The notes under the pieces: generated by a model
The model's database searches: none
Seen by the model: only the letters and a program-made list of their open reading frames with translations
What the model was told of the DNA's origin: nothing
Shown: positions 11,407 to 35,997 of the stretch, one piece after another
How positions within the stretch are numbered: position 1 is the first letter of the stretch
How the letters are laid out: the number at the start of each line of letters is the position of its first letter
Assembly: GCF_000299415.1 (NCBI RefSeq)
Contig: NZ_AMPG01000002.1
Coordinates: 1 to 64,000, forward strand
Source of the DNA: Candidatus Microthrix parvicella Bio17-1
GTDB taxonomy: Bacteria > Actinomycetota > Acidimicrobiia > Acidimicrobiales > Microtrichaceae
Reading direction: 5' to 3'
DNA length: 64,000 nt
Made by a program: the position numbers and the translations under genes

Positions 11407-11414
11407 GGCCGCCC

Positions 11415-12032
11415 ATGGGCCCCACGACAGTGACGCTCGTGCGGCATCTCGCCGTCTCGTCCGAGGTGGAGGGCCGCTGCTACGGCCAGCGGCTGGACCC
11501 GGGCCTGGCCGACGACGCCGCTCCCCCGGCGCCGCAGCTGAGTGCACTGGCCCAAGTCGCCCTTCGCCGCACCTCGCCGGCCACCCGGGCACGAGCGACC
11601 GCAGCGCTGATCGACGGCGGCCCCTGGACGGAGGACGCCGCCTGGGCCGAGCGCGACTTCGGCGAGTGGGAGGGTCGCCGCTGGGACGCGTGCTGGGCCG
11701 ACGTTCCCGCCGCAGCGCTCGACAGCGCTGAGGCCTACCTCGGCTTCGACCCGCCCGGAGCTGAGCGGTACGACGCGGTCGCTGTGAGGGTGAGCGGCGC
11801 TCTCGATGCATTAGCGGCCGGCCGCCATCTGATCATCACCCACGCCGGGCCGATTCGCGCAGCCCTCAGCGCCACCTGCGGCTGGGGCCCCGACCAGGTG
11901 TTTGCCGCCACCATCGGCCATGGTGGCGTCGTCGTTCTCAACCATGGGCAGGACGGATGGACCGCACGGATCGGCCTGCCCGGCACCGACGATCGGGAGG
12001 AACACCCCAACCCCGCCAAAGGACCGACTTGA
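11415..12032 (+). CDS. cobC: Histidine phosphatase, probable alpha-ribazole phosphatase
   Basis: 205-residue histidine phosphatase superfamily member. The catalytic set is visible: LVRH near the N-terminus, the second Arg in TSPATRARATA, the acidic ERDFGEWEG, and the second His in ITHAGPIRA. In this context it most likely removes the phosphate from alpha-ribazole 5'-phosphate for CobS/CobT chemistry; a general phosphoglycerate-mutase-like role cannot be excluded from sequence alone. Starts eight bases after cobS and its TGA overlaps the TTG start of cobT, so the three genes are translationally linked. Confidence 0.8.
   Translation: MGPTTVTLVRHLAVSSEVEGRCYGQRLDPGLADDAAPPAPQLSALAQVALRRTSPATRARATAALIDGGPWTEDAAWAERDFGEWEGRRWDACWADVPAAALDSAEAYLGFDPPGAERYDAVAVRVSGALDALAAGRHLIITHAGPIRAALSATCGWGPDQVFAATIGHGGVVVLNHGQDGWTARIGLPGTDDREEHPNPAKGPT
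12018..12031 (+). promoter_or_regulatory. Ribosome binding site fixing a TTG start of cobT
   Basis: AAAGGA at 12018-12023 lies five bases before TTG at 12029-12031, and the TTG overlaps the TGA of the preceding phosphatase gene. No ATG or GTG in this frame gives a better start. Confidence 0.65.
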
Positions 12033-21071: not shown

Positions 21072-22111
21072 ACCGCTTCTCCGTCATCCCAAACGGTGGT
21101 GCTAACCAACTCTGCGACGGTTTCCAGCAGGTCGCCGTAGGCTTCGGCGCTACCGAAGGTAGCCCGGTAGAAGAGCGCCATGAGGAGTAGATGACTCGCC
21201 GAAATGAATGCGGCAGACGCCAACCCGGTGTTGAACAGCAAAACCGCGGATGCGACAGCCACCACAAACTCCGTGACCACTAGCGACGCGTAGAGCCCCA
21301 GACGATTGCGAAACTGGTCGATCTCGACCTGCAAGTGTCCCGGTACCAGGTGGTAGGTGCGGTGGACCATCCCTTGGACCGAACCGGGTATTTCCTCGTT
21401 TGCTCGATCCTCACTAGCCCGAAGGAGGTTGCCCAAGCGAGTCGGCATGATCCGACTGGACCGTGGAAACCGATTCATACGCTTCTCATGCGCCTCTAGC
21501 CGGCGCATCGTTCTTGCAGATGCGTAATCCCGCCAATCGAGCTCGTTAAGGAGCTCCTCCTGGTCTGAGCTGAGTTTCGGAACGCTGGCGACATCCAGGA
21601 GGTCGGCGTGCACGTGCCTGACCACGTCGATGTCGTCTATTGCATTTGCATACCTTCGCTCAGCCGACCGGAACGCTTCGAGCTGGAGTTCCTCGCGACG
21701 TCCGCGTGCCTCCTTCTCCCACCGCTCCCATCGTCCAGCGAAAAGATCAGCCACCCACTGAGGCAGCCTTGCTGTGCCCCAGTACCCCTCCAGGAACCGG
21801 ATCGAGCCAAACTCGAAGGCCTGAGTCACGGTTGTAAGGAGCACGACCGCTCCAAGTAGAACCAGCAGCTGCTCGATGCTTGTTCCACCAACGGCTTCCA
21901 GCGCATCCTTCACGTCGCCGTCAGCGATGCTCATCCGAATCGCGAAGAAGATCCCAGCAATCGCTAACGCCGCAGGCAACCACGCGCTGATGCTGAGTTG
22001 ATCTAGCACCCTGGCGACGAATGCCGACAGCCCTTCTGGCAACTTGGGTGAAGGAGACCCATCTTTAGTCTTCAGTGACGGGTTGGGCGATCCGACCCCT
22101 GGTGCGTTCAC
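21068..22111 (-). CDS. Unrecognised four-helix membrane protein after McrC
   Basis: 347 residues. Two N-terminal membrane helices (LPAALAIAGIFFAIRM, IEQLLVLLGAVVLLTTV), a charged cytoplasmic region of about 150 residues with predicted long helices (WERWEKEARGRREELQLEAF), and two C-terminal helices (LVVTEFVVAVASAVLLF, SHLLLMALFYRATFG). The GTG at 22111 overlaps the mcrC TGA (GTGA), the same junction type as the three upstream gene boundaries, so it belongs to the same operon. No family is recognised. By analogy with other defence operons a terminal membrane protein could be an abortive-infection effector; that is inference. Confidence 0.75.
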   Translation of the reverse strand: MNAPGVGSPNPSLKTKDGSPSPKLPEGLSAFVARVLDQLSISAWLPAALAIAGIFFAIRMSIADGDVKDALEAVGGTSIEQLLVLLGAVVLLTTVTQAFEFGSIRFLEGYWGTARLPQWVADLFAGRWERWEKEARGRREELQLEAFRSAERRYANAIDDIDVVRHVHADLLDVASVPKLSSDQEELLNELDWRDYASARTMRRLEAHEKRMNRFPRSSRIMPTRLGNLLRASEDRANEEIPGSVQGMVHRTYHLVPGHLQVEIDQFRNRLGLYASLVVTEFVVAVASAVLLFNTGLASAAFISASHLLLMALFYRATFGSAEAYGDLLETVAELVSTTVWDDGEAV

Positions 22112-23418
22112 TGAACCATTCTCTCCTCCCTGACGTCGGAGGTGGTTGACCCTCCCCACCCCCTGTCGAGAGTCCGTGACACGGACTCGATGACGGACGA
22201 GTCAGGCCGCAGGTCGATCCAATCAGCCAGATTCTTGAGCGCAGACTCGACGCTGGTGTTGGAGCCGCTCAGCGGCAGTCGGTAGGTGTGGATGACCTTG
22301 CCAGAATTGCGGACTGCGATCGAGTGGACGTGCGAGCCTGAGCCAGCTGCTGGGTCATCTGGATCCTGTGCGTAGATGAGTACGCCCTCGTGGAGGTTCA
22401 TGGCAGTTGCGTAAGCCAGCAACTGGTAATAGTCCCGCAGCCTGGCCGGACCGGTCGACATCTTGTACTTGGTATCCCCCACGTAAAGGTTTTGGTCAGC
22501 CTGGCGGAACACGAGGTCTGGGCGCATGGTCTGCCCCGAGGTCGTGGCCAGGGGCACATTGGGCTCGGTGACCACCAGCAGATGCCGCAAGTGCTTAGAG
22601 AGGCGATCAGCCACGAACGCTTCGAACAGATCGTTCATGTCGACGGTGAACGAAGCCGCCGCGGTCGCAGCTGTGCGGTGGGTCAGCGTGAGGTTGCGCA
22701 GGATCAATCCAGCCAGGCGCATGGCCACCTCGTAGTGGGCATCAACTCGGCTGGGCGTCCAACGGTCGACGGCCGCTGGGTCAACAACGACCCGGGCGAC
22801 CTCCGCAAAGCGGGGCGCGAGTCGGTTGAGGCCGATGCGCAGGCCCAGGTCCAGGCCGGGCACACGTCCCAGGCGGTCGAGGGCCGCCACCAACGCTCGG
22901 TTTGGGAAATGATCGGCGGTGTACTCGTCGAACCGGCATGCCATCGGGCTCACCAGCGCCGGACGACGGACCTGCCGAACCAGGTCGATTCGTCCCCGGG
23001 GCGACCCCAGCCGCTCCTCGGTGGGACGGTACCCCCGGTGCACTCCCCTGGCTGTCGCCCGGTCAACGGCTGTGGTGAACACGGCCGCCATCACCGACAG
23101 CAGGTCGGCGTCCTGGTCGAAGCCAAACAACGTTTCGTCGAACTCTGGCGGCTTCACTCCCAACAGCAGGAACAGGTTGTGCAGTGGCACCTTCGGCCGG
23201 ATCGCCACCGAGACGTTGCCGGTCACGATGGCGCCCACGTGCTGGGTGGCCGTCAGCTCGTAGTGGCCCTCCTTGCTTGAGACCCCAACCGACAGCCGGT
23301 TGCCCGCTGCCTGTTGGATGGCGGAAGCGTCGGCGCCAGAAAGTGCGACGGTGCGCTTCTCGTACTCGGCCAACTCGACCACCGAATGGCCGAGCACAGA
23401 AGTGGCGGTTAGGTTCAC
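22108..23418 (-). CDS. mcrC: McrC, nuclease subunit of McrBC
   Basis: 436 residues. McrC is the PD-(D/E)xK subunit that works with the McrB GTPase to cut modified DNA. The C-terminal nuclease core is visible: MRPDLVF, then LYVGDTKYKM (catalytic D-x-K), followed by YYQLLAYATAM. The N-terminal half has the family-typical beta-rich segment GHYELTATQHVGAIV and IRPKVPLHNLFLLLG. Starts at GTG 23418 within a four-base overlap with mcrB. Confidence 0.9.
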   Translation of the reverse strand: MNLTATSVLGHSVVELAEYEKRTVALSGADASAIQQAAGNRLSVGVSSKEGHYELTATQHVGAIVTGNVSVAIRPKVPLHNLFLLLGVKPPEFDETLFGFDQDADLLSVMAAVFTTAVDRATARGVHRGYRPTEERLGSPRGRIDLVRQVRRPALVSPMACRFDEYTADHFPNRALVAALDRLGRVPGLDLGLRIGLNRLAPRFAEVARVVVDPAAVDRWTPSRVDAHYEVAMRLAGLILRNLTLTHRTAATAAASFTVDMNDLFEAFVADRLSKHLRHLLVVTEPNVPLATTSGQTMRPDLVFRQADQNLYVGDTKYKMSTGPARLRDYYQLLAYATAMNLHEGVLIYAQDPDDPAAGSGSHVHSIAVRNSGKVIHTYRLPLSGSNTSVESALKNLADWIDLRPDSSVIESVSRTLDRGWGGSTTSDVREERMVQ

Positions 23419-25721
23419 ACCGTGGCCGCCGCCTCGGCGCCACCCGCTGGGCTCTTCTGGAATCGGTTGAGCACCTGAGCCCACTTGAACGAGCGGATGG
23501 CATCGCTATCGCCATAGAACAGGTCGTCGATCAGCGGCTCGACGTTGTACTCCCAGATGCGCTTCATATGAGCCTCGTCGAGGTCGCTTCGCATGAAGTG
23601 GCTGGGTCCGATCAGCTGGTCACCATTACCCATGCGGTCCCGCAGGTCGGTGTTGACCATCTCCAGCAGGCTGGCCCAGGCAACCTCTCCGCCCTCACGC
23701 TTCAAGTAGCGCCCCAAGACGCCCGAGATGGGCTCGGTGTCGGGGAACACTGGCACGAAGTGGAAACGGCGCCGCAGCGCCGCGTCCAGCATGGCGATCG
23801 AGCGGTCGGCCGTGTTCATGGTGGCGATCACCCAGACGTTCTCGGGCACCGAGAACCCGTCCGGCCGATACAACGGAACCACCGACTCGTTGCGGTACTC
23901 CAGTAGAAACAACAGCTCGCCGAACACCTTGGGGACGTTGGCCCGGTTGAGTTCGTCGATGGTCAGCAGATGGCGACGCTCACCGTCTTCTGTTGCATGT
24001 TCAACCAGCGAGGCGAACGGCCCCTGCTCCAGCGTGTAGCTGAGATTGCCACCGGAGTCGGTCGACGGCCGATAACCCTCGAAGAAGTCTTCGTATGAGG
24101 TCGACGGGTGGAACTGCACGAACCGACGGCGATCAACTGACGGCGCCAGCGCCTCGGCCAGCTTGCGGGCGATGTAGGTCTTGCCGGTGCCCGGCGGTCC
24201 GTAGAGCACGATCTGGCGCTTGTCGCGCAGCAACGCCACCAGATCATCGACAAACGACCGGCCATCGAGATGGCATTCCTCGACGACCGAATCGAGACGC
24301 TCCTCCAACTCGGCCCCTTCGTCCGCGGGTTCGGCGTCTTCGTCCGTCATGCCGAGATCACTCGGCTTCTCGCCGGTCGCGTCGGATTGGGCAGTCGCCT
24401 CGTCGGCGCTGCCTGCCAAGGCCATGATTCGGTCGAACACCGGTTGCAGCGCGGCTGCGACCCGTTCGATCTCGTGGGCAACGTCCGGGGAACCTACGGC
24501 TTGGTCCATCGGAATCAGCGTGCCGACGAGAAAGTCTCTTCTGGCCTGTCCGGCGCCCTCCACCGCGTACACCGCAAACGGGTCGCCGTAGTTTTCGACG
24601 ACCTGTAGGCCAGCTGGCAACAGCGCCACCAGTTCGTCCCGGATCGAAAGGGACCAGCCAGACTGGCGGCGGCCCGGGGTCACGCCAATAGCGATCCCAT
24701 CGGACGTCGCCGACACGATCATCGAGCACACTTCGTTCCAGCCGGTGACGTTCTTTGGCTTCCACTTCACCCAGGCGTTAGCTCGGATGATTGGGGGATT
24801 CTTCATCCAATATTCGTTAGCCACGTGGCGGCGTAGGTCGCGACCCAGCGCATTGCCGACCGCGGTCTCGCTGTGATCACCAAGGGTCCTCATCTCAGCG
24901 AGCACCGCCGCAATGTTGGTGCGGGCCACCTCAAACGAGTCGTCTGGGTACTCCCCATCGACTCGCTGTTCGTAGAGTTCGTGAGCCCATTGGAGCCGGT
25001 CGCCCAACGCGCTATCAAGGCCAATCCACTGGTTGTCCCTAAACCAGGTGAGAGCTGCATCCACATTGGCCAAGGTGATCGTTTCGGTACTGGCTGGCAC
25101 CATGACTTCCGAGAGGGGCCGTCCGACGGCGATGTCGCTGCTGAGTGAACGAATCAGCGTCCGGTATCGACGATAGCGATCGACCGGGTCAAGGTCCTTC
25201 GGCAGCCAGCCCAGAGCCTCAACCGCCTCCTCGCTTGCGGGCCCCAGGAAGGGCCAGGTCTCTGGGGCCTGGAACCACCAAAAGAACGAACAGAAGATGG
25301 CAGCGCTCTTTGGGGCAGGGTGCCCACCCTCTCGAACTAGTTCAACCTGCCGTAGCAACGAGGCCAACTTCTCGTCTGCCTGCTGATCGTTTGCTGGCAC
25401 CGCGATGGTCTCGATCAACAGCGCAGCCAGGTCGGACGGCTCGCCCGACTTCTTGACCAGCGAGTTGAGGAACATCGCTACGCCGAAGTTGAATCCGTAG
25501 AATAACTCGCTGAAGCCAGCCCCTCGCGAGTTCGCATCCAACTTCTGTCGGAACGCTTCGAGGTCGAGGGTGGAACGAAACTCGTCCAGCGCGTCAACGA
25601 GGGCCTGCCGATGCGGCGCAGCGGCGCCGTCAGCTTGACTGACCGGTGCGGCAGCAACCATCGCCTCGCGTATCTGGGCGAACTTTCGTCGACGAAACTC
25701 GGTCTCGCGTTCGTGGATCAC
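23415..25721 (-). CDS. mcrB: McrB-type AAA+ GTPase
   Basis: 768 residues. The C-terminal AAA+ domain has Walker A LYGPPGTGKTYIARKLAEA, Walker B LLTIDELNRANVPKVFGEL and the McrB GTPase signature ATMNTADRSIAMLDAALRRRF. The long N-terminal part (about 480 residues) is not a compact DNA-binding DUF3578-only type: it carries a first helical region (residues 20-260) and a second domain with WNEVCSMIVSATSDGIAIGV that probably reads DNA. An acidic linker (DEDAEPADEGAELEE) separates them. GTG 25721 overlaps the GIY-YIG stop by four bases. Confidence 0.92.
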   Translation of the reverse strand: MIHERETEFRRRKFAQIREAMVAAAPVSQADGAAAPHRQALVDALDEFRSTLDLEAFRQKLDANSRGAGFSELFYGFNFGVAMFLNSLVKKSGEPSDLAALLIETIAVPANDQQADEKLASLLRQVELVREGGHPAPKSAAIFCSFFWWFQAPETWPFLGPASEEAVEALGWLPKDLDPVDRYRRYRTLIRSLSSDIAVGRPLSEVMVPASTETITLANVDAALTWFRDNQWIGLDSALGDRLQWAHELYEQRVDGEYPDDSFEVARTNIAAVLAEMRTLGDHSETAVGNALGRDLRRHVANEYWMKNPPIIRANAWVKWKPKNVTGWNEVCSMIVSATSDGIAIGVTPGRRQSGWSLSIRDELVALLPAGLQVVENYGDPFAVYAVEGAGQARRDFLVGTLIPMDQAVGSPDVAHEIERVAAALQPVFDRIMALAGSADEATAQSDATGEKPSDLGMTDEDAEPADEGAELEERLDSVVEECHLDGRSFVDDLVALLRDKRQIVLYGPPGTGKTYIARKLAEALAPSVDRRRFVQFHPSTSYEDFFEGYRPSTDSGGNLSYTLEQGPFASLVEHATEDGERRHLLTIDELNRANVPKVFGELLFLLEYRNESVVPLYRPDGFSVPENVWVIATMNTADRSIAMLDAALRRRFHFVPVFPDTEPISGVLGRYLKREGGEVAWASLLEMVNTDLRDRMGNGDQLIGPSHFMRSDLDEAHMKRIWEYNVEPLIDDLFYGDSDAIRSFKWAQVLNRFQKSPAGGAEAAATV

Positions 25722-26632
25722 TGTTCGCTCCCTGGCCGGCCATTCGACTGTCCTCCGGACTGGGCATCCTGGAGATCCTTCAGGGTCTTGCCCCCTGCCG
25801 CCTTCCACTCAACCCGGCCGTTGGACGTCCGGCCCAGCATCACCATCGCCGCGGTTGACGGGGAGCTGAAGACATAGTCCTCGGTCAGTCGTAGGTACTT
25901 TCCGTCTTCGACCAGCAGCCCTTTATCCCGAAGCGCAGCTCGGAGTTGTGTCCCATATGCGTGGATGGAGGGAACCTCGATGGGGCGTGCAAGCGAACCT
26001 GCGTGAACGACAAACCCGTCAGCGGTCTCCGTGCCCTCGGCCTTCGTGTCCCTCCCAACCAGCTTGAGGCGCTCGGAACTGGAGGGTTGCTCCTCGGCCT
26101 TCTGGAACACCTGCACCCCAAGGACCGGGTAGATCAGGAGCATCTCCGCAAGGAACGCCTCCGCTTCCGCAGTGTCAGGCTCGGACAATGGCGGCGACGA
26201 ACCGAGGTTCCCGTTGTCCAACTCGGCGCGTTTGGCCACAGTCGCCAGACCGATCAGCCTTGCTTCTAGATATCTAATGTGGGCTTTGTTGAGGTTGGCG
26301 TCCTTGCTGGTGAAGACGATTGCCCGATTCCAGAACTCCTTGTTCTTGTTGTGGCTATCGAGTCGGCCGGGAAGATCGTCCGTTTCGCCGATATACACCC
26401 GATTGGCCAGCAGTCCTGACTCTGTCGGGCCGATCAGCAAGTAGACCCCCGGCCCATCGAGGTCAGACCGGGCTCGTAGGTCACCAAACCGGGTGCGAGG
26501 CGCCATTAAGGCCTTGCCAGTCCAGTTGCTCTTCTCTACGACCCAGACGCCGTCTGCGCCTCCGTCGGCCAGGAAGATCCGGATCGACGTGCCAAGGGGC
26601 TTGGGTGTCATAGGCACACTTCCCACCTTCAT
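25718..26632 (-). CDS. GIY-YIG nuclease with C-terminal DUF4357
   Basis: 304 residues. The nuclease motif is GVYLLIG followed by VYIGETDDLPGRL (Gly-x-Tyr and Tyr-Ile-Gly with the downstream Arg), and the catalytic Glu in YLEARLIGLA. The C-terminal 70 residues (VFSSPSTAAMVMLGRTSNG, WKAAGGKTLKDLQ) match the DUF4357 domain, which in other proteins follows GIY-YIG nucleases near type I restriction genes. ATG 26632 overlaps the hsdM stop (ATGA); ATG 26611 is an alternative with a better upstream GGTGGGA. Local GC is visibly lower than in core genes. Confidence 0.85.
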   Translation of the reverse strand: MKVGSVPMTPKPLGTSIRIFLADGGADGVWVVEKSNWTGKALMAPRTRFGDLRARSDLDGPGVYLLIGPTESGLLANRVYIGETDDLPGRLDSHNKNKEFWNRAIVFTSKDANLNKAHIRYLEARLIGLATVAKRAELDNGNLGSSPPLSEPDTAEAEAFLAEMLLIYPVLGVQVFQKAEEQPSSSERLKLVGRDTKAEGTETADGFVVHAGSLARPIEVPSIHAYGTQLRAALRDKGLLVEDGKYLRLTEDYVFSSPSTAAMVMLGRTSNGRVEWKAAGGKTLKDLQDAQSGGQSNGRPGSEQ

Positions 26633-28113
26633 TCGGTGTCCTCGATGTTGATTCCGATTCCTTCGAGGCTCTCGGCCAGCGCCCTGAACTCCTCCAGCGC
26701 CGACTGGAGATCCTCCACGATCTCGGCGGCGATAATGCCCGGCGGCGGGAGGTTGTCGGTGTCCTCAAGGCTCTCGTCACGTAGCCAGAAAATGTCCAGG
26801 CTGGCCTTGTCCCGGGCCACCAAGTCGTCGTAGGAGAAGCGCTTGAACCGGTCGCTCTCCTCCCGCTTACCGAGTTCGCCGGGCCGGTAGCTCTCAACGA
26901 AGTCGTCGAGGTCGGCCCTCGCAAGCGGGTTCTGCTTCAGAGTGAAGTGCTGGTTCGTGCGCAGGTCGTAAATCCAGAGATCTTTGGTCCACGGGGTCTC
27001 CGAGCCTGGCTTCCGCTCGAAGAACAACACATTGGCCTTCACCCCTTGGGCGTAGAAGATGCCGGTGGGCAGGCGCAGCAGGGTGTGCACGTTGCACTCG
27101 TGCAGCAGCTTGCGGCGCACCGTCTCCCCGGCGCCGCCCTCGAACAACACGTTGTCCGGCACCACGACGGCGCAATTGCCGCCGATCTTCAACAGCGTGC
27201 GCATGTGCTGCACAAAGTTGAGCTGCTTGTTCGATGTCGAGGCCCAGAAGTCCTCGCGCACCACCGTCATGTCCTGCTTGTCGATCTTGCCTTCGGCGTT
27301 GACGATGGTCACCGACGACTTCTTTCCAAACGGCGGGTTGGCGAGCACCAGGTCGAACCGCTGACCCGGGTCCGCCCGCAACGCGTCATCGAGGTGGACC
27401 GGACTATCGCTCTCCGGTGTCTCGATGCCGTGCAGCAACATGTTCATGGCGCACAAACGGGCGGTGTTCTCGACGATCTCCCACCCCGTGAAGGCCCCGG
27501 ATCGCAGGTGCTGCTTCTGGGCGCGGTCCAGGTGCGGGTTGTGCTTGACGATGTAGTCGTAGGCAGCCAGGAAGAATCCCCCGGTCCCACACGCCGGATC
27601 GCAAATACGCATGTCCGGCGTCGGCTGCATCACGTCGACCATCGCCGAGATCAGTGGCCTCGGCGTGAAGTACTGGCCTGCGCCCGACTTGGTGTCGGCT
27701 GCGTTCCGCTCCAGCAGGCCTTCGTAGGCGTCGCCCTTCACGTCGACGTCCAGGCCCATCCATGTCTCGCCGTTGATCAGGTCGTGAATCAGCCGCTGAA
27801 GCTTGGCCGGGTCTTGGATGCGATTCTGCGCTTTGCGGAAGACGACTCCGAGCATGTCGTCGGTGGTACCGAGCTGGCTGAGGATGTTGATGTAGTGCGC
27901 TTCCAGTTTTTCGCCGGAGAGCTTCAGCAGTGACGGCCAGTCCAACCCGTCCGGGACGATGTCGGGCAGCCCGAGCTCGCGCTGCTCCTCGGACATCTTG
28001 AGGAAAAGCAGGTAGGTGAGCTGCTCGACGTAGTCGCCGTAGGACAAGCCGTCGTCGCGCAGGACGTTGCAGTAGTTCCACAGCTTGTCGACCAGTGCCT
28101 TCGAGTCGGTCAC
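26629..28113 (-). CDS. hsdM: Type I restriction enzyme M subunit (N6-adenine methylase)
   Basis: 494 residues. Class N-6 methylase with motif I DPACGTGGFFLA, motif IV NPPFGKK and the N-terminal HsdM_N helical domain starting VTDSKALVDKLWNYCNVLRDDG. The GTG at 28113 is chosen because it gives this typical N-terminus and has GGGAG five to six bases upstream; longer frames (to 28221) overlap the three-Cys gene. Works with HsdS for specificity. Unusually, hsdS is not adjacent but two genes away. Confidence 0.93.
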   Translation of the reverse strand: MTDSKALVDKLWNYCNVLRDDGLSYGDYVEQLTYLLFLKMSEEQRELGLPDIVPDGLDWPSLLKLSGEKLEAHYINILSQLGTTDDMLGVVFRKAQNRIQDPAKLQRLIHDLINGETWMGLDVDVKGDAYEGLLERNAADTKSGAGQYFTPRPLISAMVDVMQPTPDMRICDPACGTGGFFLAAYDYIVKHNPHLDRAQKQHLRSGAFTGWEIVENTARLCAMNMLLHGIETPESDSPVHLDDALRADPGQRFDLVLANPPFGKKSSVTIVNAEGKIDKQDMTVVREDFWASTSNKQLNFVQHMRTLLKIGGNCAVVVPDNVLFEGGAGETVRRKLLHECNVHTLLRLPTGIFYAQGVKANVLFFERKPGSETPWTKDLWIYDLRTNQHFTLKQNPLARADLDDFVESYRPGELGKREESDRFKRFSYDDLVARDKASLDIFWLRDESLEDTDNLPPPGIIAAEIVEDLQSALEEFRALAESLEGIGINIEDTE

Positions 28114-28132
28114 GTCGTCTCCCACTTCGTCG

Positions 28133-28882
28133 TCATACGCCAGCACCGACGGTGGCGGCCGGGTACTCATCCCACGTGCGCCCATCAAGCAAACGGCCAT
28201 GCGTCTTGGGCGTCCGCCCACCCCACTGCTTGAAGAAGAACGGCGTACCGCTCTCTACGCAGGCATCTCGGATGTGCCGAACGTGCACTGGGTCGACGGG
28301 CCGACACGAAGGACCGCTCTCGCCACCCACGATCACCCAATCGATGCCGTCGAGATCTACGGATACAGGACCGAGCAGCGGTTCGATCGACAGGAAGCGC
28401 ACCGAGGACGGCACGGTCCGAAGGTGGTCGACTCGAAATCCGTAGGTCTGGGTCTCGACAGACACGCCGACCCACAGGTTTGGCGGCCAGTCGAGGACCT
28501 CGGCAAGACGACTCAGACGCTTCGACCGCTTGGTCAGGAGCTGGTACGTGTGGCGAGGCGTATCCGCCATGACTGCGAAGACGTCTCGGATGAACTCGAC
28601 AGGCACGTCGTGGTGGAAGAGGTCGCTCATCGAGTTCACAAAGATCATTCTCGGTTTGGACCATCGGCGAGGGATCGACAGCGTGTAGGGATGGACGGTC
28701 AGAGCGAACCCGGGCCCGCTGGTGCGAGGGTCGCCATCAGCTTGGTACTTCTCCTGCCCCATTGCTTTGAGGCGCGCCGCCATGGTGAGCGCATAGCAGT
28801 TGTCGCAACCCGGTGAGGTTTGGTCGCACCCGGTCGTCGGGTTCCATGTTGCATCAGTCCATTCGATAGTTGATTCAGCCAT
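28133..28882 (-). CDS. Gp37/Gp68 (DUF5131) three-Cys-motif protein
   Basis: 249 residues. Starts with the family pattern IEWTDATWNPTTGC, then CDQTSPGCDNCYA, giving Cys19, Cys26 and Cys29 (CX6CX2C), followed by NSMSDLFH, LLTKRSKRL, WVGVSVETQ, RFLSIEPLLG and VIVGGESG. The barrel-like repeat of short motifs and the Cys triad resemble radical-SAM chemistry with altered spacing; the reaction is unknown. Its known genomic partner family, TcmP, is the next gene upstream (15 bases). Ribosome binding site GGAAGGG. Confidence 0.85.
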   Translation of the reverse strand: MAESTIEWTDATWNPTTGCDQTSPGCDNCYALTMAARLKAMGQEKYQADGDPRTSGPGFALTVHPYTLSIPRRWSKPRMIFVNSMSDLFHHDVPVEFIRDVFAVMADTPRHTYQLLTKRSKRLSRLAEVLDWPPNLWVGVSVETQTYGFRVDHLRTVPSSVRFLSIEPLLGPVSVDLDGIDWVIVGGESGPSCRPVDPVHVRHIRDACVESGTPFFFKQWGGRTPKTHGRLLDGRTWDEYPAATVGAGV

Positions 28883-28897
28883 CAGCCCTTCCCCGCG

Positions 28898-29818
28898 TCA
28901 TGCCAACTCGGTCCAAGTTGGCAGTTCGATTGGAAACTCGTTCCGCCACCCAGTGTGCAGATCTTCATAGGCTGGCCGCGGTTCGGGAACATCGAAAAGC
29001 GTGTCGGCTCGTGGGCGCACGCGGTCCCGTTCCTGTGCCCACTGCATGATGTTGGCTCCGGCCGGGTGGTCCGATGCGAACACCATGGCGTACAGCTCGC
29101 CTCGCGAACCGTGGATAGGGCGCACGAGTAAATGCTGGTAGCCGAGGTCGGCCAAACGGTCCATGTAGAGAAAGAGGTAGGCCTTCTGAGCCTCGCCTCC
29201 GGTGATCTCGCCTGCGAGTTTGGCCTCCCACACGCGCTCCAACGGCCCGCTCGCGCCGTAGAGTCGGGCCGCCTTGTCGAGCAGCCGATTCTCACCGACG
29301 GCTTCACGGTTCTTGCCAAGCATTCGGACCATGCCCGAGGTGGAGAACAAGATCCACATCTCTACCTTGGACTTGTCGAATTCTTCGGCATAGGCACGCT
29401 TGTGGTCCGCCAGCGCCCTGACCGTCGCCCAGTCCAACTCCATCCCGTCGGGATCGAGGAACGCAAACGTTGGGGCCTTCATGGGAAGGGACGTCAAAGC
29501 TGCCGGAATCGTTACGTTGCAGTCTCCATGCACGACGCGAGCATTCGGTCGGTCGGCCACCAATTCCGACAGCTCCCCCACCCGCTTCCGGGCCAACTCG
29601 AAGAGCCGAACATGGGTGAACGGCGGCTTGACCTCCAGCGCCGTCTCCGCCGAACCAGGGAACGTGCGATCCGTGCCCGCTATCCGGTTGAGCGTCTCGC
29701 CTGCGAACGCGTCGAGGTACACGCGGTTCGCGGCGCTGCTGCTTGCCTTGGCGAACACCTCCAGGTAGTCCGTCAGGATCGAGAGCTTCTCGTACGAATG
29801 CGACTTCCACGCCCTCAT
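28898..29818 (-). CDS. tcmP: Three-Cys-motif partner protein TcmP
   Basis: 306 residues. Matches the TcmP family: N-terminal YEKLSILTDYLEVFA, VYLDAFAGETLNR (methyltransferase-like motif I), RVVHGDCNVTIPAAL and FAFLDPDGMELDW (motif IV-like), KVEMWILFS. The Rossmann-like pattern suggests a SAM-binding or nucleic-acid-modifying enzyme, but function is unproven in the family. ATG 29818 has GAGGAG upstream. With the downstream three-Cys gene it forms a two-gene cassette inserted between hsdS and hsdM. Confidence 0.85.
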   Translation of the reverse strand: MRAWKSHSYEKLSILTDYLEVFAKASSSAANRVYLDAFAGETLNRIAGTDRTFPGSAETALEVKPPFTHVRLFELARKRVGELSELVADRPNARVVHGDCNVTIPAALTSLPMKAPTFAFLDPDGMELDWATVRALADHKRAYAEEFDKSKVEMWILFSTSGMVRMLGKNREAVGENRLLDKAARLYGASGPLERVWEAKLAGEITGGEAQKAYLFLYMDRLADLGYQHLLVRPIHGSRGELYAMVFASDHPAGANIMQWAQERDRVRPRADTLFDVPEPRPAYEDLHTGWRNEFPIELPTWTELA

Positions 29819-29955
29819 CAGCGCTCCTCGGGGCCATCAGCCGATTCCGGGCTGGAACTCGATGGTATGGAGGACCAGTGACAATCTGGCCGAGGTGCTC
29901 ATGTGTCGCCGCCATGGCACAAATCTGCCAACAGCTACAGGGCCCTCGGCCATGA

Positions 29956-31311
29956 TCACGCTGTCACCCGCTTGCGACGAGGTGGTTTGGCCGCCGCTCG
30001 TTCCGCAGCGATCCGTTCGAGCAGCACCGACGCCGGTTCGTCAGCAGGGTCCTGCGGGACAAGCTGCCCTGAGAACGCGGCGGCAAGAACCGCCCGGCGA
30101 AGACCAGATGAACGCCTCGCTGCTACATCAATCGCAGCGCCGACGCTGTCCGCTAGATCCGAAAAACGATCGATCTCATTGCACCGTCGAATCTGCTCCT
30201 CGATAGGTGGCACCGCGATTTCTACCGACTTGAGTTGACGGCCGGAGATGCCAACCTGGCCAGCTGTCGTCTTGAGGCGCGATTCAATCGAAGCCCTACC
30301 CGCTCCCACCGAGACATAGGAACTGATCCAGCGGGGGTCGGCCTGCGCTTCGTCCACGACACCCCTGATCAGCTTGTCGGGGTGCAACAGTCCGGCAGCG
30401 TCGGGCGGAACAACTGCACATGCACCCACGTACTTTGGATTGCCGCTGTACCTAGTGAACAGCAGATCACCGGGGTCCACCTGGTAACGATCTGCTCCAG
30501 CTGGCGCCGGTGTTGCGTACCGAACGTCCGTCTGATCGAGCCTTCGCTGTCGCACCGCACTAATTCGGAGAATTGGCATGCCAGGTGGGTCAGCTGAGGG
30601 TCGAGAGACGAAAGCACCATTCCTCAATGAGGTCAGTAGGTCGGTCAGCTCAACGACCCGCCAGGACCCGTCGTTGGTCAGCGCTGAGCATGCAGCGTCC
30701 GGGAGACGCGCAGCCCTTTTCGCCGCACTCCCCAAACAGGCCTCGGCGGCGTCGAGGCGGGAGAAGTGCTCTTCGATCGCTGCCACGATCCGTTGTTGTT
30801 CGGGGAGCGGCGGGACAGGGATCGGGAGAGTTCGTATCCTGCCCTGTGTCAAATTGAGACCGCTATCGCTCACACCCGTCTTCATCTCATCAATGGCTGA
30901 CCATGCCTCGCCGCTCAGCAGGTAGTACTCCATGAACTGCGGTTCGAGGTACCGATTATCGAAACGAAATCGGTACATCTTCCCCGAGATCATCAACTTT
31001 GGTCGCGTTTCGCTTACGAGGCAGGCGACGCCGCACCTGGACCGAGGCCCGGCACAAGTGAGCAAGACGTCGTCGGGCTTCACCTCAAGACCTGGCTTCG
31101 GCTGCTTGTCGACCGGTAGGCGCTTGTTGTGCTCCGGAAGGAAGTGCCCAGGCTGTATCGCTGTGGTCTTGAGCGCTCCCCACTCTGAATCGCCGGCCGG
31201 AGACTTCTCGCACTGCGGGCTCCACCCTTGGTGGATGGTACGTCCATCTGCCTGCGGAGCCAGCAGGGCGTCGAGGGGCGCCACGACCCAGCCGTGAGGT
31301 ACGTCGCTCAT
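29956..31311 (-). CDS. hsdS: Type I restriction enzyme specificity subunit
   Basis: 451 residues with two target-recognition halves, each ending in the conserved helical spacer: PPLPEQQRIVAAIEEHFSRLD near residue 170 and PPIEEQIRRCNEID near 370, then RRAVLAAAFSGQLVPQDP at the C-terminus. It sets the bipartite DNA target for both HsdM and HsdR. ATG 31311 overlaps the hsdR TGA. A 137-base gap without a gene separates its stop from tcmP, the largest break in this operon. Confidence 0.92.
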   Translation of the reverse strand: MSDVPHGWVVAPLDALLAPQADGRTIHQGWSPQCEKSPAGDSEWGALKTTAIQPGHFLPEHNKRLPVDKQPKPGLEVKPDDVLLTCAGPRSRCGVACLVSETRPKLMISGKMYRFRFDNRYLEPQFMEYYLLSGEAWSAIDEMKTGVSDSGLNLTQGRIRTLPIPVPPLPEQQRIVAAIEEHFSRLDAAEACLGSAAKRAARLPDAACSALTNDGSWRVVELTDLLTSLRNGAFVSRPSADPPGMPILRISAVRQRRLDQTDVRYATPAPAGADRYQVDPGDLLFTRYSGNPKYVGACAVVPPDAAGLLHPDKLIRGVVDEAQADPRWISSYVSVGAGRASIESRLKTTAGQVGISGRQLKSVEIAVPPIEEQIRRCNEIDRFSDLADSVGAAIDVAARRSSGLRRAVLAAAFSGQLVPQDPADEPASVLLERIAAERAAAKPPRRKRVTA

Positions 31312-34148
31312 GCGGCGAGGGTTTCGGTGAGGTCGGCGAGGATGTCGTCGAGGTCGTGGCCGAACAGCTCTCTGGCCTTGAAGAGGCCGCCGTGTTGGCT
31401 GAACGGCGGGTCCTGCAATTCGACCAACTCGATACTGAGGCTGGCGGCCAAGTGGTCACGGATGAGGGCGAGCCATTCGGCTTGGTCGGCAGTGAAGGTG
31501 CGCCCAGCCTGCTGCTGTTGGGCCATCCACCCATCGAACCGCTCGCGTACCCGCTGGGGCCACGGCTCTAGTTGGTCATCGACTCCGAGAGCAAACCTGA
31601 CCAACGACACCAGGTTGGTCAGCACGGTGCCGGCGGACCCACGGACTTTCGACTCGTCGAGCGTCCCGTAGGCCTCCCACAACTTTTCGGGGGTCCAGCG
31701 ACGAGGCGGCTTGCCGATGGCGTCCGCCAACGCCTTGATATCGGCGTAGGTGGGCCGTTGGGTGTAGGGCTTCGAGAAGTACGCCTGGAACCCGGTGATC
31801 TCATCCTGATTGTCCTCGAGGTACTGGCGAAACGACTCGACGGTCTCCTTTGCCCGAGACTCGGCATCGACGACGAAATCGGCTCGGACGATCGTGTCCT
31901 TGCTGATTTCGTCAATCAGCTGCTCGACGCTGCGCTGAACATTCTCCAGCTCTTCGCACAGTTCCGGGTTGGAGGCGATCGGCAGAAGCGCCTGCTCGAA
32001 CATCCTGTTCTTGGTGGCTTCCACCGCCGCCTCGTCCGGTTCGGTATCGCCGCTGTCCATCTGCGCCGCTGCCAGTTGGCGGTCGGGATCGATAGCGTCG
32101 ACCATCTGGTGAGCCAGATCGCTGAGCGATGTCTCTGCAATCACTTCCAGGCGCTCCCGATCATCGGCGGCGATTCGGCCGTCCAGCCGGGCCAAGCGTG
32201 AGGCCAGCGAAGACACGAGGTCTTCGCTGACATGCCCCAGACGAGCCTGATGCAGAAGCTTGGCCAGAGGTACACCCCGCTTGCGTTCCAACGGCGTCGA
32301 GTCGCTGAGCTTCGTTTCGGTGACGCCGACGGCATCGATCAGGACGAACCGGTCCTTCGTGACCGCGTCGGGGGTGACCGCCTGGAGTGCATCGGGATCG
32401 ATCGTCCGGACCCCGCGCCCTTTCATCTGCTCGAAGAAGTTGCGTGACCGCACCATGCGCATAAACAGCACGGCCTCGATCGGCTTCACATCGGTGCCGG
32501 TGGCGATCATGTCGACCGTGACAGCGATGCGCGGGTTGTAGCTGGTGCGGAACGACTGGAGTAAGTCTTCGGGCTTGTTGCCGTCGGACGACTTGTAGGT
32601 GATCTTGGCGATCACGTCGTTGCCCTTGCCGAACTCCTCCCGGGCGATGCGCACGATGTCTTCGGCGTGGGAGTCGTCCTTGGCGAAGATCAGCGTCTTG
32701 GGGATGTTGGCGAGGCGACCGTGGTCGTCGATGTCCCGGTTAGGGAACATCGCCGGCAGGTTGTCCCGGAACGCCTTCACGACGGTGCGGATCTGATCCT
32801 TCGAGACCACCTTGCGATCGAGTGCCCGCTGGTCGTAGGTGAGATCCTCGTCGACCGCCTCCAACCTCTCCTGACGGGTCTCCCGGTTGCGGAAGGACGT
32901 GACGTACCCCTGGCCACCTTCGATGGTCGACCCGCTCTCGGTGATCGCCGTCGACAGCCGAAACACGTCGAAGTCGACGTTGACCCCGTCGGCGACAGCC
33001 TGGGGAAATCCGTACTCCATCACCAGGTTCTGATTGAAGAACCCGAATGTCTGCTTGCCGGGGGTGGCGGTGAGGCCGATGAGGAAGGCGTCGAAGTACT
33101 CGAGCACCTGGCGCCACACGCCGTAGATCGAGCGATGGCACTCGTCGACGATGATCACATCGAAGGCTTCGATCGGGAGATGCTCGTTGTAGTCGACCTC
33201 CACGGTGCGCTGGGGCTCGTGGTCGAAGGTGGAGTGTTCGTCGAGGTCCTCGTCGAAGGTGTCGTCGCCGCGCAGGATCGAATACACCCGCTGGATGGTG
33301 CTGATGCACACCTTCGACACCGGGTCGACGACGTTCGACGTCAGATGTTGCACGTTGTAGAGCTCGTTGAACTTGCGACCCGTGCCGGGGACGTCGAAGC
33401 CGTGGAACTCCTTGAGCGTCTGCTTGCCCAGGTTGCCGCGGTCGACCAGGAACAGGATGCGCTTCGCTCCGCCCTGGGTGATCAACCGCTCGGCGATGTT
33501 GGCCGCAGCGAACGTCTTGCCAGAACCGGTTGCCATCTGGATGAGAGCCCGCGGGCGGTTGTTCTGGAGCGAGGTCTCGAGGTTGGTGATCGCCTCGTGC
33601 TGGGCATCGCGCAGCCACGGGGTCTGCTCCTTGGGAGGCAGCGGCTCGATGTCGTGCACACCTGCACGCAACGATCCGTGGCGGTGGTAACGGTCGTTCT
33701 CGACCATGTCGTCGAGCGATTCGGGCCGATGGAACCAGAACACCCGGCGTGCGGTGGGTTCAGGATCGAAGCGACAGGTGAACCACGTCTCGTCGCCCGT
33801 CGACTCATATCCGAACGGGAGGTGCCCGTTGATCAGGTGCGTCTGCAACTCCTCGGGGATGCTCGACTGATACTTGACCGTCTGCCACTCGACGCCAGCC
33901 AGTGTCGTGCCCTGCTTCTTGGCCTCGATCACGCCCACGGCCTGGCGATTGATGAACAACACGTAGTCGGCTGGGCCGGCGTTGGTGACCAGTTCCCGTA
34001 CCGCCACCCCGACGCCTGCGTACAGGTTGACGCTCTTGTAGTCCTGCACCACCCAGCCGGCGCGCTGCAGCATCTCGTCGATGCGGGCGCGTGCCTTGTT
34101 CTCGGGGGCGATGTAGTCGTCCAGTTCGGCGGGAACCATCGATGGCAA
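31308..34148 (-). CDS. hsdR: Type I restriction enzyme R subunit
   Basis: 946 residues. N-terminal nuclease core (ADYVLFINRQAVGVIEAKK, PD-(D/E)xK), then a superfamily 2 translocase: QMATGSGKTFAAANIAERL (Walker A), IIVDECHRS (DEAD-like box), IGLTATPGKQT (motif III), and MKGRGVRTI (motif VI region). The C-terminal EcoEI-type helical domain contacts the methylase. Start at ATG 34148 or ATG 34139. First gene of the nine-gene minus-strand run. Confidence 0.94.
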   Translation of the reverse strand: MPSMVPAELDDYIAPENKARARIDEMLQRAGWVVQDYKSVNLYAGVGVAVRELVTNAGPADYVLFINRQAVGVIEAKKQGTTLAGVEWQTVKYQSSIPEELQTHLINGHLPFGYESTGDETWFTCRFDPEPTARRVFWFHRPESLDDMVENDRYHRHGSLRAGVHDIEPLPPKEQTPWLRDAQHEAITNLETSLQNNRPRALIQMATGSGKTFAAANIAERLITQGGAKRILFLVDRGNLGKQTLKEFHGFDVPGTGRKFNELYNVQHLTSNVVDPVSKVCISTIQRVYSILRGDDTFDEDLDEHSTFDHEPQRTVEVDYNEHLPIEAFDVIIVDECHRSIYGVWRQVLEYFDAFLIGLTATPGKQTFGFFNQNLVMEYGFPQAVADGVNVDFDVFRLSTAITESGSTIEGGQGYVTSFRNRETRQERLEAVDEDLTYDQRALDRKVVSKDQIRTVVKAFRDNLPAMFPNRDIDDHGRLANIPKTLIFAKDDSHAEDIVRIAREEFGKGNDVIAKITYKSSDGNKPEDLLQSFRTSYNPRIAVTVDMIATGTDVKPIEAVLFMRMVRSRNFFEQMKGRGVRTIDPDALQAVTPDAVTKDRFVLIDAVGVTETKLSDSTPLERKRGVPLAKLLHQARLGHVSEDLVSSLASRLARLDGRIAADDRERLEVIAETSLSDLAHQMVDAIDPDRQLAAAQMDSGDTEPDEAAVEATKNRMFEQALLPIASNPELCEELENVQRSVEQLIDEISKDTIVRADFVVDAESRAKETVESFRQYLEDNQDEITGFQAYFSKPYTQRPTYADIKALADAIGKPPRRWTPEKLWEAYGTLDESKVRGSAGTVLTNLVSLVRFALGVDDQLEPWPQRVRERFDGWMAQQQQAGRTFTADQAEWLALIRDHLAASLSIELVELQDPPFSQHGGLFKARELFGHDLDDILADLTETLAA

Positions 34149-34159
34149 CCCTACGAGGT

Positions 34160-34187
34160 CGACCCGAACCGAGCCGGATCGGGTTCA
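34160..34187 (-). terminator. Imperfect hairpin before hsdR
   Basis: Between the coiled-coil gene stop (34230) and the hsdR start, CCCGAACC near 34163 and GGGTTC near 34181 can pair imperfectly around GAGCCGGAT. It may separate the upstream gene from the restriction operon. Weak evidence: one base bulges and there is no T tract. Confidence 0.3.
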
Positions 34188-34229
34188 GGCCTCTGAAGCA
34201 ACGACAGATCGCGAGACCCGAGGTACGCG

Positions 34230-34547
34230 TCAGCTCGGCCCGTAGACCGACAAGGCAATCATCAGGCCCGCGATCGACACCATCGCGCTGAGCAAAACGG
34301 TGAGTTGGTGCCGCATGGCCTTCTCAAGTTCGCCTCTGACTCGATCGACCTTGGCGCTCACCTCAGCGACCTCGGCGCGCACCATGAACTCGAGCTTCTC
34401 CGTCTGATGGTCGAGGTCCCGCTTGGTGGCGACATCGGCCCAGCCCACGGGAGGGAGTAGCTCCATCATGGTGGTGGCCCCCTTCTCGCCAACGGCATCG
34501 TCGAGTTGCTGGTGGAGATGATATCGGGATTCTTCGGTGACGGTCAT
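34230..34547 (-). CDS. Small coiled-coil membrane protein, paralogue A
   Basis: 105 residues. Starts MTVTEESRYHLHQQLDD, then GATTMMELLPPVGWADVATK, a heptad-like charged helix (AEVSAKVDRVRGELEKAMRH) and a C-terminal membrane helix (LLSAMVSIAGLMIALSVYG). ATG 34547 has a strong AAGGAG ribosome binding site. A paralogue lies at 40814-41095 and a decayed copy directly upstream at about 34690-34834. The WADVATKRDLD pattern recurs in many actinobacterial short proteins of unknown function. Confidence 0.8.
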   Translation of the reverse strand: MTVTEESRYHLHQQLDDAVGEKGATTMMELLPPVGWADVATKRDLDHQTEKLEFMVRAEVAEVSAKVDRVRGELEKAMRHQLTVLLSAMVSIAGLMIALSVYGPS

Positions 34548-34689
34548 GACATGGCTCCTTGATCGAGGTGGCATCCGAACAAGGAGGACGTCGGGTCCTC
34601 TGACCGAGCGACCATCCATCAGCGGGCGGTCCGCGTCTCACGTTTCCCAACGTACGCCGGGGCTGTGACATCCAAGGAGAGCGGGTGGT

Positions 34690-34834
34690 GCGCCAGCCCG
34701 CGCCGAAGACCGACAAGCCGTTCGCCAGACCAGCGAGTAGCACCATCGCAGCAGTTCCATCATGACGGTGACCCCTTCTCGCCCACGGCTCCATCGAGTT
34801 ACTGATGGAGGTGCTCCCTGGCCTTTTCGATCAT
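34690..34834 (-). pseudogene. Decayed tandem copy of the coiled-coil membrane protein
   Basis: The minus strand from 34834 reads MIEKAREHLHQ, then TAA (34801-34799), then LDGAVGEKG, then a frameshift into VTVMMELL, then, after loss of the middle, another frame reads VLLAGLANGLSVFGAG, matching the C-terminal helix of the intact 105-residue gene. DNA identity is obvious around GGCGAGAAGGGG and ATGATGGA. Stop codon, frameshift and internal deletion make it a pseudogene. It abuts the Fic stop codon. Confidence 0.7.
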
Positions 34835-35952
34835 GGTCGTCGTATTGGAGAGGCGTCATCGGTCGCCATCCGATTCTGAGGCCGATGCATCGTTGCCATA
34901 AACGCAGCCATCCGGTCCACACATGCCTGGTGGGTCGCTTTCGCACCGCGCCGCTTCCGGACGAGGCCTGCCTCGATCAGCCGGTTGAGGTCCCGCGGCA
35001 CCATCCGATCCCCCGCCCGAGCGTATGTTTGGGCCACCGCGGGCGTGATCAGCTTGATCTCGTCCTGGGTCAGCCATCCCAGGGTGGTCATCGCAAGCAC
35101 CACCTCCCGTTGACGGTCGGCAGCCTTGCCTGACGGATAGCGGCTCATCACCTCGTTGACGTAGTTGATCCAGGCAACACCCAACTGCTGTTGGCGAACA
35201 GTGTCGATCTCATCACGGATTCCGTCGACAAACCCCTCGGTTGCGTAGGCCACGAAGTCGACGATGCTGCTGGTCTTACTGGCCCGATCGAGTTCTCGGT
35301 AGTACTGGTCGCAAGTCAGGTTGTAGTGATTGGAAAGCAGGTGGGCTGCGGGCAGCGGCACTTTGCCCGACCTGGCGAGGATCAGGAACTCAACCAGGCG
35401 GGCGGTGCGGCCGTTGCCGTCGCCGAACGGGTGAATCCACGCCAGGTAGGGGTGGGCCATCATCGCCCGCACCAACATCAGCGAGAAGTCGATCGATGCG
35501 TCCTCGTTCTTGAAGTCCGGGCCTTCCAGCCACTCGCAGAGCCGTTGGAGGAGAAACTCGCAGTCGTCCGCCGGTGCACCCCGGTACGGCCCGACGACAA
35601 CGGAATGCTCGCGGAGTTCGCCGGGCACGGCACCGTCATTGAGCTGGTCGTCGAGGCCGTGCAGAACCTTGCTGTTGTAGTCGCGGATCAGGTCGACGGT
35701 GAGCCTCGGGTACTTCCCTCCCTGCACCTCAGCATCGATCGCCCCCTCGATTGCCGTAGTGGCCTGGGCCCCCCTGATCAGCGTCACACGGTTGAGCTCT
35801 TCAGCCAGAGCTGGTTGGAGCGGTACTCCAGCGAGGTGCTGGCACTTGGACCTCGCCTCCCCCATCAGTAGCCAGGACCTCGGGCCCATGTCGTTGATCT
35901 GTTTCAAGTTGAAGGTAAGCCACGGATGGGACTGCTCATAGGGCCTCGGCAT
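34831..35952 (-). CDS. Fic family protein (class II)
   Basis: 373 residues. The Fic active site HPFGDGNGRTARL is intact (catalytic His, phosphate-binding GDGNGR). An N-terminal inhibitory motif TTAIEG fits (S/T)xxxE(G/N), placing it in the class II self-inhibited group. A C-terminal winged-helix-like region (LTQDEIKLITPAVAQTYARAGDRMV) follows, as in many Fic proteins with a DNA-binding tail. Expected to AMPylate a protein; target unknown. ATG 35952 chosen; the codon before is TTG. Its stop overlaps the start of the decayed coiled-coil copy. Confidence 0.9.
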   Translation of the reverse strand: MPRPYEQSHPWLTFNLKQINDMGPRSWLLMGEARSKCQHLAGVPLQPALAEELNRVTLIRGAQATTAIEGAIDAEVQGGKYPRLTVDLIRDYNSKVLHGLDDQLNDGAVPGELREHSVVVGPYRGAPADDCEFLLQRLCEWLEGPDFKNEDASIDFSLMLVRAMMAHPYLAWIHPFGDGNGRTARLVEFLILARSGKVPLPAAHLLSNHYNLTCDQYYRELDRASKTSSIVDFVAYATEGFVDGIRDEIDTVRQQQLGVAWINYVNEVMSRYPSGKAADRQREVVLAMTTLGWLTQDEIKLITPAVAQTYARAGDRMVPRDLNRLIEAGLVRKRRGAKATHQACVDRMAAFMATMHRPQNRMATDDASPIRRP

Positions 35953-35997
35953 CAACCCGCCCTACCCAACCTGCCCCCTGTTTTGTCCATCGCCTTG

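Follow-up and report, generated by a model that had tools for sequence, protein, structure and literature searches.

TcmP (NCBIfam TIGR04474) and a DUF5131 (Gp37/Gp68) protein (Pfam PF07505) form a gene pair to which NCBIfam already gives a name and which PADLOC lists as candidate PDC-M41; the pairing as such is therefore already known. DUF5131 is the 'three-Cys motif' protein and TcmP its 'partner', roles that an earlier note on the DNA analysed here had described correctly. The PADLOC model list states no mechanism. The earlier note had also called the function of the pair unknown, and we likewise found no functional study of TcmP-DUF5131 in the open-licence PMC literature (preprints and subscription papers lay outside this search). 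In the sections of four articles available to us (PMC12445080, PMC12429752, PMC7387457 and PMC5463345), TcmP, the three-Cys-motif partner domain or Gp37Gp68 is only named in a table. One example is a table in PMC12445080 that places TcmP next to Hna, a defence helicase of Sinorhizobium meliloti. A table label of Gp37Gp68 as an 'ssDNA-annealing protein' (PMC5463345, available section) is one that nothing in the present analysis supports.

Other described systems resemble individual parts of this locus. Spore photoproduct lyase and its kin (PF20903; the TIGR04470/04471 radical SAM mobile pair; the PA0069 and Rv2578c families) share with DUF5131 a predicted fold and a Cys-rich loop ending in CX2C-Tyr. 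However, DUF5131 has CX6CX2C rather than CX3CX2C, is shorter, is accompanied by a methyltransferase-fold partner and, in the case of the protein encoded in the DNA analysed here, gives no match to the SPL model. RlmJ, the 23S rRNA m6A2030 methyltransferase, resembles the predicted fold of TcmP, and the YxDxxAG and GSP blocks of the two proteins align, but the DPPY of RlmJ is replaced in TcmP by a motif IV that reads DPDG in the DNA analysed here and chiefly DPFG or DPYG elsewhere. Type I restriction-modification operons with extra genes likewise have complete R, S and M genes on one strand with tight spacing, and differ in what lies between S and M, which can be the TcmP-DUF5131 pair, nothing or an AAA ATPase.

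Here we analyse the pair in a 64,000-nucleotide stretch of Candidatus Microthrix parvicella Bio17-1 (contig NZ_AMPG01000002.1, positions 1 to 64,000), hereafter the window. The reading that we hold to be probable is that the pair is a composite module, a radical SAM enzyme together with a methyltransferase-fold protein, that acts on nucleic acid and is carried as cargo in a type I operon. To what is already catalogued we add a radical SAM reading of the CX6CX2C motif, an RlmJ reading of TcmP, an alternative TcmP neighbour and a link with one type I subfamily that is seen repeatedly. None of these was found in searches of the open-licence PMC literature, and family database descriptions may already note the radical SAM likeness.

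Gene organization of the locus

The minus strand of the window carries, in order, hsdR (31308-34148; PF04851 and PF08463 EcoEI_R_C), hsdS (29956-31311; PF01420 at 44.9 bits and PADLOC Specificity_I models), TcmP (28898-29818), DUF5131 (28133-28882) and hsdM (26629-28113; PF02384 at 226 bits). This is a complete type I operon in which the pair lies between the specificity and modification genes, just as the earlier note had claimed for its cassette. The hsdM product, an N6-adenine methyltransferase, keeps both motif I (DPACGTG) and motif IV (NPPF), and the GTG start of its gene at 28113 was inferred from homologues. Both cassette proteins score above the curated cut-offs of their families, TcmP with 153 bits against TIGR04474 (cut-off 53) and DUF5131 with 325 bits against PF07505 (cut-off 28.9). 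They also match both subunit models of PDC-M41 (PDC-M41A at 75 bits and PDC-M41B at 347 bits, respectively), and DUF5131 additionally matches PDC-M30B (328 bits).

The intergenic gaps are 137 nt between hsdS and TcmP, 15 nt between TcmP and DUF5131 and 19 nt between DUF5131 and hsdM, and purine-rich stretches that by eye resemble ribosome sites precede the starts of the last three genes. This tight spacing makes a single transcript likely. A promoter scan of 7 kb, which may not suit this organism, returned one site, the same number as in shuffled sequence.

The operon lies within a defence island that spans 22108-35955. Next in the run, downstream and on the same strand, is a GIY-YIG/DUF4357 gene (25718-26632; PF14267 at 71 bits) that is itself a PADLOC candidate (PDC-S14, 339 bits) and whose GIY-YIG domain scores 21.5 bits, slightly under the cut-off. 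It is followed by genes for an McrB-like AAA protein (23415-25808; PF07728, and PRK11331 McrB at 130 bits, well short of the 637 required by that model) and an McrC-like protein (22108-23484; PF10117 McrBC at 159 bits). A Fic gene is situated upstream of the type I operon.

DUF5131 is predicted to resemble radical SAM enzymes

The cysteine triad that the earlier note placed near the N-terminus of DUF5131 consists of C19, C26 and C29 (C-X6-C-X2-C) and is followed by Tyr30, and this motif with its Tyr is intact in 188 of the 194 DUF5131 loci. An AlphaFold2 model built on 71 of the 144 parsed alignment rows (pLDDT 93.6) contains a partial TIM-barrel. Among the matches listed, the closest fold is spore photoproduct lyase (VIA Z 13.7, rmsd 2.9, 194 residues), which is also the best Foldseek match (E 3.5e-3), and the next are viperin-like enzymes (Z 11.4), SuiB, the lipoyl synthase LipA and RlmN. 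Radical SAM enzymes, judged by entry title, make up 48 of the 50 VIA rows listed, with RlmN and MiaB among them. At the sequence level, DUF5131 reaches TIGR04471 (rSAM_mob_pairA) with E 1.8e-17 and 63.5 bits, under the cut-off of 355. The window protein has no match to PF04055 (Radical_SAM) or PF20903 (SPL) at E 0.01, and searches of PDB sequences with single proteins, and likewise with the DUF5131 profile, returned matches at chance level.

A separate observation concerns loci in which TcmP is followed by a CX3CX3C radical SAM protein in place of DUF5131 (L300:1483-2313, L299:1270-2127, L023:516-1346 and the partly masked L020:2373-2954). In L299 and L300 these neighbours have 276-285 residues, and L023 and L020 hold close copies of them. 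The L300 and L299 proteins match PF04055 above its cut-off (9e-12 and 6e-12, respectively), and fall slightly under the cut-off for SPL (3e-6 for both) and for DUF5131 (1e-5 and 9e-5). The TIGR04470/04471, PF20903, PA0069 and Rv2578c models also score on the alternative neighbours, all of them under their curated cut-offs, and an intein-bearing NCBI radical SAM family is among the matches. An intein-like insert is also present in one DUF5131 (L011, a 490 aa ORF on the minus strand), where it ends in HN directly before the third cysteine. Inteins favour active sites.

In profile alignments with hhalign, CX6CX2C falls in register with the CX3CX3C of the alternative neighbours (E 1.5e-4, probability 51%) and, against three lyase-family sequences, with CX3CX2C (E 0.022, 14 columns, probability 2%). 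This alignment weakly suggests that CX6CX2C could be CX3CX2C with three extra residues in its first spacer. Where its barrel begins, DUF5131 thus has three cysteines suited to holding a [4Fe-4S] cluster, as judged from the conserved motif and the weak alignment with CX3CX2C. The canonical CX3CX2C spacing is absent from the window protein, which lowers the case for membership in the radical SAM superfamily. Unusual cysteine spacings are known in other radical SAM enzymes, and we therefore limit our claim to DUF5131 working like one. Within that limit, a radical-SAM-like nature of the CX6CX2C partner is supported by prediction, and with it the half of the earlier interpretation that proposed an Fe-S cluster and SAM cleavage.

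The likeness to spore photoproduct lyase raises the alternative that DUF5131 is a DNA repair enzyme that reverses a base lesion recognised by TcmP, with phages, plasmids and islands carrying the pair for protection of their DNA. Among the matches listed, the lyase stands clearly ahead of every other solved fold (Z 13.7 versus 11.4 for the next), the short profile register is with lyase sequences, and in phage early regions DUF5131 occurs without annotated TcmP near RecT, SSB and resolvase genes. Nevertheless, we regard repair as unlikely. The window DUF5131 gives no match to the SPL model, and its neighbours elsewhere include restriction, Abi and DISARM-like proteins (a scan run without a control set). 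Spore lyase repair, moreover, is not known to involve a methyltransferase-fold partner.

TcmP has an RlmJ-like predicted fold and a divergent motif IV

The DAFAG and LDPDG motifs that the earlier note described as methyltransferase-like lie at residues 36-40 (motif I) and 121-125 (motif IV) of TcmP, and a methyltransferase-like nature of the protein is borne out by prediction. The AlphaFold2 model of TcmP, which used 65 of 66 parsed rows (pLDDT 88), has RlmJ as its best structural match (Foldseek E 1.4e-8; Z 17.1, rmsd 3.2, 220 residues) and Trm1 as the next, and the TcmP profile also reaches RlmJ by sequence (E 3e-4). D36 and G40 are invariant across the 65 rows, in keeping with a class I fold with SAM motif I. 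TcmP nonetheless lacks the catalytic DPPY of RlmJ, and with DPDG in its place it may not be an active methyltransferase. The TcmP sequence model matched 37 of 296 genomes of the phylum; a match in E. coli, which falls under the TIGR04474 cut-off, is presumably the RlmJ of that organism.

TcmP varies far more than its neighbour: across 65 loci that hold both proteins, the median identity is 20% for TcmP and 56% for DUF5131. Such rapid divergence fits a variable, selecting partner, though weaker constraint could also account for it. A mirror-tree comparison of the 65 loci with both proteins parsed gave r 0.33 (p 0.0005 by permutation), with r 0.38 (p 0.0005) for the 40 genome loci and r 0.20 (p 0.0085) for the 25 viral loci; these correlations are weak though above permutation, and the statistics ignore shared ancestry.

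The folds of the two proteins point to different substrates, as the closest DUF5131 fold acts on DNA and the nearest TcmP folds act on RNA, to judge in part by the entry titles. TcmP might bind tRNA or rRNA as RlmJ and Trm1 do, and the pair would then change an RNA base so as to block phage takeover or resist an RNA-targeting toxin. The best TcmP folds are indeed RNA methyltransferases, RlmN and MiaB are in the structure list of DUF5131, and a DNA mark might clash with the adjoining McrBC-like genes (22108-25808). This clash is not compelling, since McrBC is known to act on some cytosine marks only. The DNA-acting enzyme closest to DUF5131 speaks for a different target, and likeness of fold proves no substrate. 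We consider RNA modification a possible but doubtful alternative.

The pair recurs in genomes, phages and plasmids

The earlier note had described the pair as recurrent, and this holds in two sets of loci found with the DUF5131 alignment, each made up of top-scoring matches and therefore leaning to close relatives. In the genome set (the best 80 of 583 confirmed matches) TcmP is present in 72 loci, and in all but one of these (71) the distance to DUF5131, counted on stop-to-stop frames, is at most 600 nt. The two genes are in tandem in one order in 32 of the 72 loci and in the other order in 16, convergent in 23 and divergent in one. In the viral set (the best 80 of 596) 35 DUF5131 loci have TcmP, likewise at no more than 600 nt, and no TcmP was found in the other 45, which indicates that the pairing is not obligatory. 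Taken together, the conservation of the cysteine motif and the frequency of TcmP in both sets are not due to chance.

Within the class, DUF5131 is sporadic, being found in 32 of a draw of 296 genomes at E 0.001. Six further genomes listed there belong to the family from which the window comes, and none of them has a match at that threshold. Among 34 loci fetched from this class, with the window excluded, 26 have TcmP. One DUF5131 without TcmP (L033:1909-2976, plus strand) groups with the window DUF5131 in the tree and adjoins a gene with a weak match to the HSDR_N nuclease domain (22.6 bits, below cut-off).

DUF5131 matches are also present in 161 records of phages and 368 of plasmids, and 146 of these plasmid records are predicted conjugative. 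For example, in Gordonia phage Jablanski DUF5131 has integrase and repressor genes nearby and a gene annotated 'methyltransferase' convergent to it, and in four of the five plasmid regions read DUF5131 is annotated beside tcmP, once near the DISARM gene drmC. Two annotated actinobacterial phages (L285 and L286) and the archaeal virus PhiCh1 (L287) carry DUF5131 without annotated TcmP in replication or early regions, where RecT, SSB, resolvase or PCNA genes are neighbours. In these viruses DUF5131 may be put to another use.

We scanned 116 neighbouring proteins (58 + 58), hand-picked for length from 297 machine-picked ORFs, for a fixed third gene, and no Pfam family occurred in more than 4 of the 58 neighbours of either set. 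With no constant third gene, a defence role would have no visible effector. The PADLOC matches of neighbours are diverse (type I, IIG, III, AbiEii, DISARM-like, Hma, Drt9 and MADS-like); they cover the best 25 families per set and were obtained without a control set, so an enrichment for defence cannot be read from them. A damage-responsive ImmA/IrrE neighbour was dropped as a candidate. A quick search found it in at least 3 loci, a lower bound because that search missed a copy in locus L248 that is seen by Pfam.

Repeated residence in one type I subfamily

The class draw contains 18 hsdM genes of the window's subfamily in 17 genomes, and DUF5131 is directly adjacent to six of them (the window, L226, L230, L235, L248 and L251), five of the six with TcmP. 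These six include one locus with broken frames (L251) and one with a decayed DUF5131 and no TcmP (L248). With one DUF5131 copy per 3 Mb and random placement assumed, a rough expectation is ~0.01; excluding the window, the adjacency is 5 of 17. In a seventh genome (G482) hsdM and DUF5131 are both at contig ends, which makes their adjacency unreadable. DUF5131 occurs in 11 of the 17 genomes with this hsdM versus 21 of the 279 others (Fisher p 3e-8), a test that treats both class searches as covering the same 296 genomes, on which the listed handles agree. In the genome set (the best 80 of 583), an hsdM of this kind precedes the pair in L059, L061 and L063, L082 carries the pair near a more distant hsdM, and L043, L051 and L101 have weak hsdM-like matches only. 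Most pairs are located away from type I genes.

Two arrangements are found in the linked operons. The order S-TcmP-DUF5131-M is that of the window, L235 and the frame-broken L251, while M-DUF5131-TcmP is that of L226, L230, L059, L061 and L063, with L248 having DUF5131 alone in this position. At L248 (9492-11353), the DUF5131 downstream of hsdM has its first Cys changed to Arg and stands beside an HTH and M78 peptidase gene. The slot between hsdS and hsdM varies in content. In L272, whose HsdM is 81% identical to that of the window, S and M overlap with nothing between them, and in L273, with an HsdM of 80% identity, the slot holds an AAA ATPase (10644-11801, minus strand; PF13191). It is possible that this position receives cargo more generally.

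The hsdM tree does not resolve the branching among the window and the four relatives nearest to it, a set in which pair, empty-slot and ATPase forms all occur, and it places five of the six downstream forms in another supported group. In the DUF5131 tree (100 of 104 rows; excessive length or a start motif that could not be located led to the omission of some loci, including L251), there are seven changes of the type I label in all, at least four of which are forced by supported branches. This scatter on the trees indicates several separate captures or losses.

These operons bear directly on the proposal of the earlier note, in which a DNA or tRNA modification made by the pair feeds into adenine methylation or takes its place. 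In its broader form, the proposal is that the pair adds to or replaces the DNA modification of the type I system, so that the sites chosen by HsdS bear a mark that is non-adenine or modified further. The S-M position of the pair in three operons, its adjacency to six of the 18 class hsdM genes and the co-occurrence with this hsdM are all in its favour, as is the NAPF of L235 (6951-8435, plus strand), where motif IV departs from NPPF in a gene order like that of the window. This is the sole favourable sign among the linked HsdM motifs and is possibly a loss of methylation or a sequence error. However, NPPF is retained in eight of the nine DUF5131-linked HsdMs (the window, L226, L230, L248, L251, L059, L061 and L063), even in L248 where DUF5131 has decayed, the slot of relatives is empty or holds an ATPase, other operons have the pair downstream of M, and most pairs have no nearby type I genes. 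Additionally, in a comparison of the window with L235, HsdS is only 37% identical, whereas TcmP (65%), HsdR (70%), DUF5131 (74%) and HsdM (80%) are better conserved. In this one comparison HsdS has turned over while the pair was kept, which argues that the pair does not follow DNA specificity. We thus reject replacement of adenine methylation on the strength of the retained NPPF and the existence of cassette-free relatives, and regard a type I modification role in the broader sense as very improbable.

Another alternative is that the pair is an anti-restriction mark that hides phage and plasmid DNA from restriction and that was captured by type I operons by chance. This would fit the many phage and plasmid records, including the predicted conjugative plasmids, and the type I label on the DUF5131 tree, which shows no clustering in excess of chance (as low a value arose in 99 of 500 shuffles). 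On the other hand, adjacency to one hsdM subfamily far exceeds chance, which argues for selected co-residence, and we consider chance capture of an anti-restriction mark to be rather unlikely.

A proposed cargo module and its significance

We return to the composite reading, which overlaps with these rivals on chemistry, so that the probabilities given to the several readings do not sum to one. The view of the pair as a cargo module draws on gene order, protein families, motifs, predicted folds, recurrence, presence in phages and plasmids, and the empty and alternative slots of related operons. The TcmP-DUF5131 pair would be a self-contained, horizontally moving module of two enzymes that modifies a nucleic-acid base. 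DUF5131 would be a radical SAM enzyme akin to spore photoproduct lyase whose three cysteines hold a [4Fe-4S] cluster, and which would cleave SAM and start radical chemistry on the base. TcmP would most likely bind and select the nucleic acid, and would either methylate the base itself or present it to the radical enzyme. In the window, where R, S and M are all present and the motifs of M are intact, the pair would be cargo that is produced together with these subunits as a putative extra layer of defence, and HsdM would not be replaced.

A more specific version of this scheme, which we put forward tentatively, is that DUF5131, with its CX6CX2C cluster, and a substrate-selecting RlmJ-fold partner install an undescribed carbon-centred base modification. 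Such a modification would serve as a defence or counter-defence mark of bacteria, phages and plasmids that has been repeatedly recruited into one type I subfamily.

The pair is common, as the class genomes and the phage and plasmid records indicate, yet the literature found, as far as its available sections extend, gives annotation only. The fold and the CX6CX2C reading offer direct tests of DUF5131 chemistry. Should DUF5131 prove to be a radical SAM enzyme that works together with TcmP on nucleic acid, a widespread gene of unknown function would turn into a well-defined question for biochemistry, and the chemistry of bases in restriction islands would go further than simple methylation.
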